Part shown: one piece after another, positions 3,441 through 60,092 of the stretch | Layout: each line of letters opens with the position of its first letter | Numbering within the stretch: position 1 is the stretch's first letter | Source of the DNA: Thysanoteuthis rhombus | Taxonomy: Eukaryota > Mollusca > Cephalopoda > Oegopsida > Thysanoteuthidae | Reading direction: 5' to 3' | Assembly (NCBI GenBank): GCA_963457665.1 | Contig: OY735211.1 | Span: 42,097,044 to 42,161,043, forward strand | DNA length: 64,000 bases | Made by a program: the position numbers and the translations under genes | Notes under the pieces: model-generated | Databases searched by the model: none | What the model was told of the DNA's origin: nothing | What the model saw: the letters and a program-made list of their open reading frames with translations, nothing else

Positions 3441-3529
3441 GACCATATTTATATAGATAGATACGTTATCCGACAAAAATATTGAATTATACAATAATTA
3501 TGACACAATTATTAATCATAATTATAATT

Positions 3530-3775
3530 AACGCGCCCTTCTTTAGGGTTGAGTGCTCTTACATGAGGCATTCGTCCATTATAAGCAATTATAGTAATGT
3601 TCGTTCAATTCTGGAATGGAGCATTCTGGTAGATGGAGAATTATGTGTAAGTAAATATATTGCTTGATTTGGTTCTGCAGACCGTCCAGTTCTGCATAGG
3701 GCTGGGGTAGAGCATCCGCCTCTGGTTCTGAAGCGAAGGTTTCGAGCCTATCTAGCGGTATTGTGGAGAAATGAA
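3530..3775 (+). mobile_element. Family A tRNA-derived SINE, truncated (no ribozyme end)
   Basis: Shares with the 46.9-kb copy the order AGGGTTGAGTGCTCTT, ACATGAGG, GAGCATTCTGGTAGATGGAGA, then a tRNA-like segment (GCAGACCGTCCAGTTC, GGGGTAGAGCATCCGCC, B box like GGTTTCGAGCC). Other family A copies continue into a hammerhead motif after the tRNA part. This copy leaves the family just after the B box near 3,775, so the ribozyme is missing. Confidence 0.65.
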
Positions 3776-4104
3776 AAATGGATCCATATACTCGAAAAAT
3801 AAGAGAGTGTATGAAGAAAGACTATAGAGGTTTTTCAGGGTTTTGTTTTTGTGCTATTCAATGATAAATTATTGTGTATGTGTGTGTTTGCGTGTGTGTG
3901 GCTATTTTTGAATGGTGGAATTAAAAGGTGTTTAGCATATTTTAAATTGATTATGATCATGTTTGCTGATTATTATTTGATGTTGTTTCAGTATTAATTT
4001 TGATAGGTGGGGCGGAAATGTTGACAAATCCTGGACTTTGCACCATTGTTTTACATTCTACTACTCATGCAAATTCAATGCATCTTCTTTTGATTCTGTT
4101 CGTT

Positions 4105-10814: not shown

Positions 10815-10859
<45 letters not shown>

Positions 10860-11096
10860 GTCATCCACAGACAGCTGTTTCGATGTATTACATCTCTTCA
10901 GTGTGGCTATAGATTTTCCATTATCCCATCCAGGCAGAATTGAAACCTTTACTTCAGACCCGTAGGCCGATATCCTACCTCTGGACTATGGAACTGGACA
11001 GGCAGTAAAGCTGAATTTAAGTCATATATTTTAAATTACACAGAAATCCCTCATCTACCAGAGTACTAAAATTGGAAATGGTATATATATATATAT
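10815..11096 (-). mobile_element. Family A tRNA-derived SINE with 3' hammerhead, best copy
   Basis: Bounded by (TA)n on both sides (10,815-10,856 and 11,082-11,096). On the minus strand the order is: a leader containing GTACTCTGGTAGATGAGGG, a tRNA-like part with A box TAGTCCAGAGGTAGG and B box-like GGTTTCAATTC, and then the hammerhead motif at 10,906-10,865. The element is noncoding. Combining a pol III-type promoter region with a self-cleaving RNA is known in the Schistosoma Smalpha SINE-like family. The assignment of this family to that type is inference. Confidence 0.75.
10865..10906 (-). ncRNA. Hammerhead ribozyme motif (family A, fully consistent)
   Basis: Read on minus: stem I strand CCACA; core CUGAAGA; stem II GAUGU/ACAUC with loop AAU (5 perfect pairs); core GAAA; stem III of two pairs (A-U, C-G) closed by loop AGCU; cleavage triplet GUC; then UGUGG, which pairs perfectly with CCACA. 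All conserved hammerhead positions are present (position 7 is A, a tolerated site). Predicted cleavage lies between plus coordinates 10,870 and 10,869. A two-pair stem III is minimal. Short stem III is known for hammerheads of Penelope-like and SINE-like elements, which often act better as dimers. Confidence 0.8.
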
Positions 11097-14724: not shown

Positions 14725-14784
<60 letters not shown>

Positions 14785-15024
14785 GCTCTTCTATAGGAAT
14801 AGAGCACTCTAGTGGATGGGGAATTTATTCGTAAATAAAGATACCGCTTAAATTCAGCCTTACTGACCGTCCAGTTTCGTAGCTCAGAGGTAGGATATCG
14901 GCTTCCGGATTTGAAACGGAGGTTTCAATCCTGCCTCGTGGTAATGGATGGGATAATGGAAAGTCTACAGCCACACTGAAGAGTTGTAATACAATGAAAC
15001 AGCTGTCTATGGATGACATAATAA
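14725..15024 (+). mobile_element. Family A tRNA-derived SINE with hammerhead, copy at 14.8 kb
   Basis: Starts in (TA)n (14,725-14,782) and then reads TGCTCTTCTATAGGAATAG and GCACTCTAGTGGATGGGGAA. The tRNA-like part has A box TAGCTCAGAGG (14,880-14,890) and B box GGTTTCAATCC (14,921-14,931), 30 bases apart. It ends in a hammerhead at 14,971-15,012 followed by ATGACATAATAATATATA. This is the clearest pol III promoter in the family. Confidence 0.75.
14971..15012 (+). ncRNA. Hammerhead ribozyme motif (family A, one stem I mismatch)
   Basis: CCACA, CUGAAGA, stem II GUUGU/ACAAU with loop AAU, GAAA, two-pair stem III with loop AGCU, and GUC cleavage triplet (15,005-15,007). The downstream strand UAUGG pairs with CCACA except for one A-C mismatch. 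Compared with the 10.9-kb copy, stem II pair 2 changed from A-U to U-A on both strands, a compensated change, and the closing pair is G-U. Confidence 0.7.
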
Positions 15025-23232: not shown

Positions 23233-24020
23233 AGGTTGAGAAAATCGAAGTTTGTATATTAATTAAAATAGAAAAAGAATTATTTGCGACTGCAAACTTT
23301 TTTACTTCCAATCCATATTATCGTATTTACCTCTTGAAAAGTGACCATGTTGAAGAACTGATGCAGGAAAGAATTACTTGATTGTTAACCAAAAAAGGGA
23401 AGTTTACAAACCGCATACTTCAAGGTCTCACTTCTGTAATACGGAAGGAAATTAATGTCCGATTTTAATACAACTCTCGGTGGATCGGGTAGTGAAGAGG
23501 TCACACAACGCCTCATTGCAGAGCCAGATCAGCATTACGAAGGAAAAAAAAGTTCTGAAAATTCCATCGATCGGTCTAAACGTTGTGTCGGGTAATCTGA
23601 TCCAAACAAGTCAATGACTATCATGTATTTGAGCAACAAAGACATGCATTGAGTCGCTGAATAACAGAATTGTCTGACCAAGCACAGAATGCAACTAAGA
23701 CGGTTTATTTTCATTCTGCGCCAACGCCCTTGGAAAAGCATGAATCCATCTCTCCCTGTGCTTGTCTTATTGTCAGCTATCATGAAATAAGTCATCATCG
23801 TGTGTAAAACGAATGGCCTTTTCATCATTAGGCCAAGGACATTGATGTAGCGAGGTATATATATATATATATATATATATATGGTACAAATCAGGTTAGC
23901 AACATAGCATAATATAAAGCAACGTCTGATATGTGATGGATTTATTTCATTGAGTGCTCGATAAAATCAACTTTATTCTTCGAGAGTCAAGTTATTTTAG
24001 TACAATCCAAAAACACAATC

Positions 24021-24076
24021 ATTCGCCTGATGAGGCCCAGAAAGGACAGAAACATGAACTAGTTTGTGTAGCAAAT
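24021..24076 (+). ncRNA. Hammerhead ribozyme motif (family C, copy 1)
   Basis: Stem I AUUCGC (24,021-24,026) pairs with GCAAAU (24,071-24,076) with one mismatch. Core CUGAUGA is 24,027-24,033, stem II 24,034-24,048 (about 3 solid pairs, loop AGAAA), and core GAAA 24,049-24,052. Stem III ACAU pairs with GUGU (24,066-24,069), giving A-U, C-G, A-U and U-G. The cleavage triplet is GUA, with the predicted cut after 24,070. The core is intact; stem II is weakened by a C-A mismatch. Confidence 0.65.
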
Positions 24077-24090
24077 CCACATCTTATCAT

Positions 24091-24146
24091 ATATATATAT
24101 ATATATATATAGATAGATAGATTGATAGATAGATAGATAGATAGAT
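24091..24146. repeat. (TA)n and (GATA)n between tandem hammerheads
   Basis: A TA run at 24,091-24,111 followed by GATA/GATT units to 24,146. It lies inside the 187-nt family C monomer. Confidence 0.9.
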
Positions 24147-24209
24147 GGGAGGTTTTTCTGTCGGTATTCTATGTTTTGATCAAGGAAAAGGATCCGGATA
24201 AATCAAGTC

Positions 24210-24263
24210 ATTCACCTGAAGAAGCCTAAAGGGCAGAAACATTAGTGTGCCTGTGTGGCGAAT
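24210..24263 (+). ncRNA. Hammerhead motif (family C, copy 2; cleavage site mutated)
   Basis: AUUCAC, CUGAAGA, stem II GCCU/GGGC-like, GAAA, stem III ACAU with GUGU (24,253-24,256), then GCGAAU pairing with AUUCAC. The nucleotide at the cleavage position (24,257) is G instead of A/C/U, so self-cleavage is not expected. Stem I here uses a G-C pair (24,260 with 24,213) where copy 1 has a mismatch, which supports the fold. Confidence 0.6.
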
Positions 24264-24374
24264 CTATTATTTCATCACATTTAAAGCTTTTCTCTGACTG
24301 AATGTTTCTGCATCGAGCACTTTTATGAAATAAACCCATCACACATCCCATATTGAATCACAAATGTGTACTTT

Positions 24375-28482: not shown

Positions 28483-28517
<35 letters not shown>

Positions 28518-28525
28518 GAATGGGG

Positions 28526-28581
28526 ATTCGTTACACAGATACGTTCATGTTTCTGCTCTGGTTGGGCTTCTTCAGTTGAAT
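28526..28581 (-). ncRNA. Hammerhead ribozyme motif (family C, minus copy)
   Basis: On minus: AUUCAA, CUGAAGA (28,575-28,569), stem II GCCC/GAGC-like, GAAA (28,553-28,550), stem III ACAU with GUGU (28,536-28,533), and GUA triplet. Stem I keeps four outer pairs but loses the two adjacent to the core. The core is intact; activity would be weakened. Confidence 0.55.
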
Positions 28582-28589
28582 GATCAATC

Positions 28590-28639
28590 ATTCGCCTGAA
28601 GAAACTCGGACAGGTCAGGAACATAAAGGTGTTTGCGTA
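28590..28639 (+). ncRNA. Hammerhead motif, degenerate (family C, plus copy)
   Basis: AUUCGC and CUGAAGA (28,596-28,602) are intact, but the second core box reads GGAAC instead of GAAAC, and the downstream stem I strand is lost. Stem III (ACAU/GCGU) and the GUA triplet remain traceable. Expected to be inactive. Confidence 0.5.
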
Positions 28640-28794
28640 AAGAGCCCCCATTCTGCAATCTTTCTAGCTGTAATCTAAAACAACTTGATATCCAAAGTCA
28701 AAATTTATCGAGCACTCCACAAAATAAACGCATTATACACTGGATATTGTATTATATCATATCATATCATATGTTATATCGCATCCCTGATATG

Positions 28795-32984: not shown

Positions 32985-33565
32985 TTTCTCATACACGAAT
33001 CAACAAACCTTTCACAAAAATCATCAACAACCGAATCACAAAAACGCTAGATGAAAACCAATCACGGGAGCAAGCTGGCTTTAGAAGAAGCTACTCGACC
33101 ATGGACAATTTCCATTCGATGAATTTCCAAAAGAGAAAACAGCAGAACAGAAAATACCACTCGCTGTAGCATCTATCGACTTTGAGAAAGCCTTCAACTC
33201 GTTAAAAATTCCCCAGGTCGTTGATGCTATCAGTCTACAAGTAGACTCCGTATACGTCATACTGCGACATATATACAGTCATGGCAGCTCCTTTATCAGA
33301 CTGCATGAAGACTCAGAGACCTTTCAGATCCAAAAAGGGGTGCGACAGAGTAATACCAGCTCAGTCCAACTCTTCACAGCCTGCCCCGAGATGATCTTCA
33401 GAAACCTAGACCCGGAAAATAAAGGAATCACAATAAACAGAGAATATCTGGGTAGCCTCAGATTTGCAGACGACATCGTCCTTTTTTTGCAGAGAACCTC
33501 CACCACTTCCAACAAATTCTAGATGAATTAAATGAAAAAAGCAAGACGGTCGGCCAAAAGACAGT
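32985..33565 (+). pseudogene. RTE-type LINE reverse transcriptase fragment
   Basis: Three frame segments cover the RT palm. Segment 1 has FTKIINNRITKTLDENQ and REQAGFRRSYSTMDN (RT motif 'QAGFR'). After a frameshift near 33,130, segment 2 has SIDFEKAFNSLKIP (motif A), GVRQSN (usually GVRQGD) and LRFADDIVLF (FADD catalytic motif C). After another shift at the T run near 33,485, ILDELNEKSKTVG follows. The motifs and their order match the RT domain of RTE-clade non-LTR retrotransposons. Frameshifts and the altered GVRQGD make it non-functional. The endonuclease and C-terminal parts are missing here. Confidence 0.8.
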
Positions 33566-46622: not shown

Positions 46623-46758
46623 GTGTACTTTAGAGAGTGAGACAGACTCGGGAGTGAAGTTTTTGGTGGTAAGGTTTATTAATCCTTATATGTCAATAGT
46701 CCATACATGTTTCGGGATTTCTCCCATCATCAGTGGTGTGCGTTGTGTGAGTGTGAAT
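46621..46758 (-). mobile_element. Family D repeat with hammerhead-like motif
   Basis: The plus strand starts with AGAGAGTGAGACAGACTCGG, then GAGTGAAGTTTTTGGTGG and TAAGGTTTATTAATC. The same start recurs at 63,925-64,000. On the minus strand CUGAUGA (46,733-46,727), a GGGA/UCCC hairpin with loop GAAA, and GAAAC (46,713-46,709) occur in hammerhead order. The segment then leads to AATAAACC, as in family C. Bounded by (TA)n on both sides. Confidence 0.55.
46686..46740 (-). ncRNA. Possible degenerate hammerhead motif (family D)
   Basis: Both core boxes are present and stem II pairs perfectly over 4 bp. However, an extra U lies between CUGAUGA and stem II. Stem III (ACAUGU with ACAUAU) has one C-A mismatch, and stem I has at most two pairs. 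Treated as a candidate only. Confidence 0.35.
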
Positions 46759-46805
<47 letters not shown>

Positions 46806-46825
46806 GATGGGATAAAAGTCTATAG

Positions 46826-46867
46826 CCACACTGAAGAGATGTAATACATAGAAACAGTTGTCTGTGG
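46826..46867 (+). ncRNA. Hammerhead ribozyme motif (family A, intact core)
   Basis: CCACA, CUGAAGA (46,831-46,837), stem II AUGU/ACAU four pairs with the core-proximal pair G-A, loop AAU, and GAAA (46,851-46,854). Stem III is two pairs with loop AGUU, followed by the GUC triplet (46,860-46,862). UGUGG then pairs perfectly with CCACA. The predicted cut is after 46,862. Confidence 0.7.
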
Positions 46868-47114
46868 ATGACACAATTAATGCTCCTCTATTCAGGGTTA
46901 AGCACTCTTTAAGTGAGGTAACTCATCCGCTGTAAGCTTATGCAATGCTCTTCTGTAAGAATTGAGCACTCTGGTGGATGAAGAGTTTCTGCATAAATGA
47001 ATATATCGCTTAAATTCAGCCTTACTGACCACCCAGTTCCGTAGTCCAAAGGTATGATATTGGCCGGGTTCGATGTGAGGGTTTCACTTCTGCCTCGCGG
47101 ATAAAAGTCTATAG

Positions 47115-47156
47115 CTACACTGAAGAGATGTAATACATCGACACAGCTATCTGTGA
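47115..47156 (+). ncRNA. Hammerhead motif, inactivated (family A)
   Basis: CUGAAGA and stem II GAUGU/ACAUC are perfect. The second core box is GACAC instead of GAAAC, the cleavage triplet is AUC instead of GUC, and stem I is weakened (CUACA/UGUGA). Expected to be dead. It marks the second monomer border. Confidence 0.6.
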
Positions 47157-47164
47157 ATGACACA

Positions 47165-47165
<1 letters not shown>

Positions 47166-47212
<47 letters not shown>
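47166..47212. repeat. (TA)n(TG)n microsatellite
   Basis: Follows the family A dimer-like copy directly. Confidence 0.9.
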
Positions 47213-59204: not shown

Positions 59205-59415
59205 AGGCCACCTCTTGCCTGAAGATGCCCAAACAGGGTAGAAACATAAACGTGTTTGTGTAGCAAATCCTTACTTCATCATATACTAAGCTCTACTCTA
59301 ACACATCTTGGTCTTTAATATTGAATGTATCGAGTACTTTATGAAATAAACCCATCACACATAGGATATTGTATTATATCATATTGCATTCTTGATTTGT
59401 ATTATATACACGTAT
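59205..59415 (+). mobile_element. Family C element, hammerhead plus tail
   Basis: The hammerhead at 59,213-59,268 is followed by TTAATATTGAATGTATCGAG, TACTTTATGAAATAAACCC, ATCACACATAGGATATTG and TATTATATCATATTGCATTC. The same tail follows the hammerheads at 24.3 and 28.7 kb and defines the family. No protein frame. Confidence 0.65.
59213..59268 (+). ncRNA. Hammerhead ribozyme motif (family C, intact core)
   Basis: UUGC (59,215-59,218) pairs with GCAA (59,263-59,266). Core CUGAAGA is 59,219-59,225. Stem II is UGCCC/GGGUA, five pairs including one G-U, with loop AAACA. Core GAAA is 59,241-59,244. Stem III is ACAU with GUGU (59,258-59,261), loop 59,248-59,257, and the GUA triplet ends at 59,262. 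The predicted cut is after 59,262. All conserved core positions are present. Confidence 0.7.
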
Positions 59416-59759: not shown

Positions 59760-59970
59760 TGATGTTCTGTTGTATTACGACTCTTCAGTGTGGCTATAGA
59801 CTCGATATCGATTTCAGGCGGGATTGAAACCTTCGCTCCACACCAGGAGTCCGGTATTCTACTCCTCCTCTATGCAGAAATGGACGGATAGTAGGATTGA
59901 ATTCAACGATATGTTTTTTAGACTATAATTCACCATCTACCAGAGTACTCAATTCAAGAGTTAGAAGAGC
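59689..59970 (-). mobile_element. Family A SINE with partial hammerhead
   Basis: Lies between (CT)n(TA)n at 59,689-59,755 and (TA)n at 59,972-60,090. On minus: GCGCTCTTCTAACTCTTG, GAGTACTCTGGTAGATGGTG, a tRNA-like part with GAGGAGTAGAATACCGGAC (A box-like) and GGTTTCAATCCCGCC (B box). The sequence CCACA-CUGAAGA-GUCGUAAUACAAC follows, after which the second core box is damaged (AGAAC) and stem III is lost at the (TA)n border. Confidence 0.65.
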
Positions 59971-59971
59971 G

Positions 59972-60092
<121 letters not shown>

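Follow-up and report, generated by a model that had tools for sequence, protein, structure and literature searches.

What kind of element carries the small hammerhead motif found on the minus strand of this squid DNA, and how are its copies made? The analysed stretch (the window) comprises 64,000 nucleotides of Thysanoteuthis rhombus, and an earlier note had described in it a perfect hammerhead ribozyme at the 3' end of a tRNA-derived SINE. We examined the motif, the repeat to which it belongs and the ends and junctions of related copies in the source genome.

The hammerhead motif and its repeat family

Direct reading of minus-strand positions 10906-10865 gives a type I hammerhead (open at stem I) with the letters CCACA CTGAAGA GATGT-AAT-ACATC GAAA C-AGCT-G TC TGTGG, and all elements claimed in the earlier note are indeed present without mismatch. 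Stems I and II have 5 bp each, stem III has 2 bp with a palindromic loop and the triplet is GUC; the invariant core, the three stems, an NUH site and the open stem I of a type I hammerhead are thus all found. Cleavage would be predicted between 10870 and 10869. Most copies of the repeat possess an additional short outer helix, GUC/GAC, with the internal loop UAUAG/AU; the copy with this motif (C1) has AUC instead, so one pair is lost there. A strict descriptor (CUGANGA, stem II of 4-8 bp, GAAA, stem III of at least 2 bp including A15.1-U16.1, UH, and stem I of 5 bp) matched once in the window, at the C1 motif, and once in 200 dinucleotide shuffles taken together, with both strands searched.

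Covariance models, which the earlier note had named as a check, gave nothing above threshold for the motif: the whole window gave no Rfam match at gathering thresholds. At a lax threshold there were 10 weak matches, among which the sole hammerhead model, RAGATH-1-hammerhead, fell on the C1 motif with 16.1 bits (threshold 56.3, E = 4.3). The models probably stay below threshold because stem III is very short. At minimum energy, a 55-nt monomer that includes the consensus outer stem folds into a structure other than the hammerhead (-15.8 versus -7.0 kcal/mol for the hammerhead).

Six stretches of the window match the family, C1 and five related ones. The copies and their features are as follows.

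10854..11071, minus strand: copy C1, a 5'-truncated unit ending in the hammerhead (nhmmer against related window copies; model match)
10865..10906, minus strand: type I hammerhead of C1 (direct reading, descriptor, shuffles)
10978..10988, minus strand: A-box-like TAGTCCAGAGG of C1 (pattern search)
10936..10946, minus strand: B-box-like GTTTCAATTCT of C1 (pattern search)
10815..10856, no strand assigned: (AT)21 run at the 3' end of C1 (repeat listing)
14777..15024, plus strand: copy C2 (nhmmer, model match)
46805..46877, plus strand: copy C3, the 5'-truncated first unit of a head-to-tail dimer (nhmmer)
46874..47167, plus strand: copy C4, the second unit of that dimer (nhmmer, model match)
59762..59974, minus strand: copy C5, old, its hammerhead broken past stem II (nhmmer, model match)
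3523..3781, plus strand: copy C6, old (nhmmer, model match)

C2, with its A box at 14880-14890, B box at 14922-14932 and hammerhead at 14971-15012, belongs to an older subfamily in which one A-U pair of stem II is swapped to U-A; its stem I has one mismatch. The hammerhead of C3 (46826-46867) has one mismatch in stem II, that of C4 (47115-47156) is decayed, and no recognisable hammerhead was seen at the 3' end of C6.

The C1 query retrieved 5,670 first-look candidates from the 2.73-Gb source genome, a number that is not a verified copy count, and the 40 of them that were scored, C1 included, all had E ≤ 8.7e-66. The hammerhead repeat is an interspersed family, and the placing of the motif at the 3' end of a repeat, now seen to be high-copy, was upheld. 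A random sample of 20 x 10 kb of the genome (15,464 N) held no copy at E ≤ 1e-3. In viral and genomic contig collections beyond the source genome, long patterns gave no match and a short pattern matched two viral contigs (L001 and L002). For detailed reading we took 40 loci on the strength of their similarity to C1, a choice that favours young copies.

The CUGANGA..GAAA..UH core is kept in 59 of 89 hammerhead matches. We aligned 79 of these (59 distinct), leaving out six with indels, three that start inside the motif (L073, L075 and L080) and the decayed C5; 14 of the 79 are letter-identical to the consensus. Paired cells make up 93.1% of the alignment, a value reached by 1 of 500 shuffles. 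The covariation score lay above all 500 shuffles, an excess that relatedness alone can cause. Both partners have changed in two pairs, but 300 of 500 shuffles do as well. The older subfamily (5 distinct sequences) is marked by its stem II pair that went from A-U to U-A, and L019 has an A-U to G-C change in stem I; an earlier count over 46 copies gave the same picture. Covariation in the stems, whose absence among genomic copies the earlier note had named as a refuting result, is present but weak. The substitution rate is lowest in the hammerhead (2.3%), higher in the tRNA-like part (4.1%) and highest upstream (5.1%). We claim no selection on the hammerhead from these copies, as the rates without CpG are nearly equal (2.0% in the hammerhead versus 2.3% in the tRNA-like part) and the copies were picked by likeness to C1.

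Other features of the window deserve mention in their own right. Runs of (TA)n, (GA)n and (CA)n are frequent throughout it, and several border copies of the hammerhead repeat family. A reverse transcriptase fragment lies at 33085-33522 on the plus strand; five relatives were found (best identity 66%), which carry PF00078, and from its motif FADDI we presume that it derives from a LINE. A second, unrelated repeat family has a hammerhead-like core, ATTCGC CTGAWGA.GCCC-AAACA-GGGC. GAAA CATAAACGTGTTTGTG TA GCGAAT, in which stem III is longer and stem II has a basal mismatch. Its copies in the window, some of which are inverted neighbours (e.g. the third and fourth), are listed here.

24020-24093, plus strand: second-family copy
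24209-24360, plus strand: second-family copy
28511-28581, minus strand: second-family copy
28589-28761, plus strand: second-family copy
59215-59383, plus strand: second-family copy

The second family also occurs in L012, L028, L029, L044, L051, L055 and L058, and Rfam HH9 reached only 14.0 bits (E 0.4) on one of its copies. Just upstream of the C3/C4 dimer, on the minus strand at 46706-46733, is the stretch CTGATGATGGGAGAAATCCCGAAACATG, which we take to resemble the minimal hammerheads of Penelope-like elements; a similar stretch is found upstream of the L020 copy.

Unit anatomy, copy ends and partial dimers

The working consensus unit measures 312 nt from cleavage site to cleavage site (289 bp in the window dimer, 46863-47151) and has a GC content of 43%. 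About 184 nt (hand count) precede the A box TAGTCCAGAGG, the B-like box lies 31 nt past it, and the hammerhead closes the unit. With one type I hammerhead per unit and head-to-tail units, this lies within the 150-450 bp by which metazoan non-LTR retrozymes are recognised. The B-box consensus is GGTTCRANNCC, from which GTTTCAATTCT departs at two positions. With the second base of the B pattern relaxed from G to G/T after the sequence had been inspected, pairs of A and B boxes at a spacing of 35-75 nt occur twice in the window (C1 and C2) and twice in 100 shuffles taken together. Both boxes, B in its relaxed form, are present in 25 of 39 loci; among 24 multi-unit copies, L064 alone has a first unit that retains an exact A box together with a relaxed B box.

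The description as a tRNA-derived SINE in the earlier note was borne out for the A and B boxes and failed for an ordinary tRNA-headed SINE. ARAGORN found no tRNA in the window, Rfam gave no tRNA match at E ≤ 10 in C1, C2, C3/C4 or L029, and no recognisable tRNA head was found at the 5' end of the unit, where about 184 nt come before the A box; the term "tRNA-derived" therefore refers to the boxes and their spacing only. The loop-like CTACGG of the unit may resemble that of tRNA-Arg. The unit contains no TTTT, but we rejected this as a proof that pol III is used: the same holds for 15% of base shuffles and 53% of dinucleotide shuffles. The circular fold of two units is 66% paired but no more stable than that of shuffled sequences (z of -0.8 and -0.2, 100 shuffles each).

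The two ends of the copies behave differently. At the 3' side, 41 of 42 elements (40 loci) end 15 to 23 nt beyond the cleavage site, 22 of them at exactly +18; the exception, L041, has an internal deletion ahead of the same end letters. A (TA)4 or longer run lies within 40 nt on the 3' side of 40 of the 42 elements and on the 5' side of 22. The 5' ends (one per locus, 40 loci) are scattered, and two of them lie beyond the cleavage site, within a second unit. They form clusters at -307..-280 (12 of 40) and -232..-226 (10 of 40), which may reflect joining at AT-rich letters. If templates were usually cleaved linear RNA, 5' ends should accumulate at the cleavage site; this 40-locus sample shows no such pile-up, with one 5' end within 8 nt. 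Judged by eye, L007, C6 (from about 6 nt beyond) and the second element of L004 (directly after the cleavage site) begin within about 6 nt downstream of that site, and a cleaved linear template could also give such starts.

A junction query spanning the hammerhead and the next unit gave 1,233 first-look candidates in the genome. The 40 that were scored had E ≤ 3.2e-33, and all 40, the window copy included, aligned across the cleavage site. We read the 20 that ranked best after the window's own copy. Their first units begin at many different points, and they are uninformative on a 5'-end pile-up because the query itself reached only 23 nt to the 5' side of the cleavage site. Together with L010, L024b, L041 and C3/C4 they form a set of 24 multi-unit copies, all of which are partial dimers; three or more contiguous units were not seen among the copies read. 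Where one unit passes into the next, the hammerhead is continuous and no (TA)n intervenes.

The units of one copy resemble each other. The likeness test used 16 hand-picked copies in which both units cover a tested stretch of about 80 nt; L067, L072, L073, L075, L078 and L080, whose first unit starts inside the stretch, and L076 and L041, whose second unit is rearranged, were dropped. Same-copy units were more alike than chance pairings, with 0 of 20,000 permutations reaching the observed value, 1 of 20,000 without L024b, and 16 of 20,000 without L024b and C3/C4. This likeness shows in the mean; taken copy by copy, a unit's own partner scored best in only 4 of the 16. By eye, spacer deletions are shared in L064, L070, L074, L079 and C3/C4, and the spacers of the two units differ in L077 and L081.

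How the copies may arise

The DNA itself shows how the copies are built and that the units of one copy are alike. For transcription, cleavage, circle formation and the identity of the enzyme we infer the following. On balance we favour a non-autonomous retroposon of the metazoan retrozyme kind with its own tRNA-like internal promoter. A copy of more than one unit would be transcribed, either from its A and B boxes by pol III or by read-through, and the hammerheads would then excise the ~312-nt unit, probably as paired hammerheads because stem III has 2 bp and ACAGCUGU is self-complementary. A host ligase would close the circle. The reverse transcriptase of another element would nick AT-rich DNA, start internally about 18 nt beyond the cleavage site and copy round the circle for anything from part of one lap up to two laps. 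A fixed internal start on a circular or multimeric template would account for 3' ends at a constant place, 5' ends at many places, and partial dimers whose units are alike. A Penelope-like element would be the best match in print for the enzyme; the copies bear Penelope-like marks (partial tandems, an AT-rich target and an internal start near the hammerhead), which do not prove the enzyme. The fully specified hybrid of SINE and retrozyme, with a pol III tRNA-like promoter, excision by paired hammerheads, a circle, and Penelope-like copying at (TA)n from about 18 nt past the cut, is a tentative proposal. If true, it would tie non-autonomous metazoan retrozymes to their mobilising element, and rolling-circle reverse transcription would be evident from genome anatomy alone.

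That the family is instead an ordinary tRNA-derived SINE moved by a LINE (e.g. RTE-like) appears rather doubtful. The hammerhead would then be a passenger, and the dimers would stem from transcription of earlier dimers or from adjacent insertions. The A and B boxes, the 5' truncation and the simple-repeat 3' end are all SINE-like, and the window has its reverse transcriptase fragment. However, a type 2 pol III promoter would start transcription near the A box and leave out the ~184 nt upstream of it, and linear transcripts begun there should yield copies with one common 5' start; a unit junction that runs through the hammerhead without (TA)n and the likeness of units within one dimer also speak against it. 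These dimers and the fixed 3' end past the cleavage site form a retrozyme or Penelope-like pattern, at odds with the SINE reading in the earlier note. Partial tandem copies, the AT-rich target and the internal start close to the hammerhead would also fit a Penelope-like enzyme that copied the retrozyme without circles, from linear multimeric or cleaved transcripts, the hammerhead being perhaps dispensable for copying. Hammerhead mutants of the anole element still insert in vitro and no RNA reads start or end at its cleavage site (PMC11167929), and a few squid copies begin just beyond theirs. We nevertheless judge this route unlikely, given the single 5' end in 40 so close to the cleavage site; moreover, as the genomic multimers read are partial dimers, a linear template would shorten in each round with no way to regain length.

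An inactive look-alike, arisen by chance or decay, is very improbable. The missing Rfam match above threshold, the other fold of the monomer and the weak covariation fit such a case, but we rejected a chance hammerhead on the single match per 200 shuffled windows and the family evidence: the consensus core is exact across a large family, and stem II is maintained in the older subfamily through its swapped pair. As a sequence motif, the hammerhead is real.

Comparison with known systems

A literature search mostly confined to sources outside subscription journals found no cephalopod hammerhead SINE or retrozyme, and the main text of PMC7229834 does not contain the words "cephalopod", "octopus" or "squid". 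The octopus tRNA-derived SINEs (Ohshima and Okada 1994, cited in PMC10886601) are likewise cephalopod tRNA-like repeats. The design claimed in the earlier note, a repeat that has pol III-like A and B boxes and closes with a hammerhead, resembles that of Sm-alpha and Sj-alpha of Schistosoma, which are high-copy, tRNA-related SINE-like repeats with a hammerhead (PMC2770079). Sm-alpha is linked there to tRNA-Gln-TTG, whereas the CTACGG of the squid element may be tRNA-Arg-like. The family may, as the earlier note suggested, be a cephalopod case independent of Sm-alpha.

Metazoan retrozymes with hammerheads are known from coral, mussel and axolotl (PMC7229834). As described there, the non-LTR retrozymes share with the squid family a type I hammerhead with a weak stem III, a unit of 150-450 bp, GC below 50% and head-to-tail units. 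Unlike them, the squid family shows partial dimers and no long arrays among the copies seen, and it has a pair of A and B boxes and a unit fold that is not beyond chance. With Penelope-like elements that bear hammerheads it has in common partial tandems, an AT-rich target and a start inside the RNA past the hammerhead. The anole element, partial-tandem and hammerhead-bearing, starts reverse transcription internally and cuts AT-rich DNA (PMC11167929); there copying begins 111-118 nt inside the ORF and the cut is at 26, as compared with a start 15-23 nt past the cleavage site here, and the squid element has no protein gene. According to a 2020 review (PMC7761336), retrozymes seem to lack promoters, Penelope-like elements and Terminons are their likely movers, and the transcription and movement of metazoan retrozymes are described as open. 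To these questions the squid family brings a promoter candidate, a constant copy start by the ribozyme, a target preference and partial dimers.
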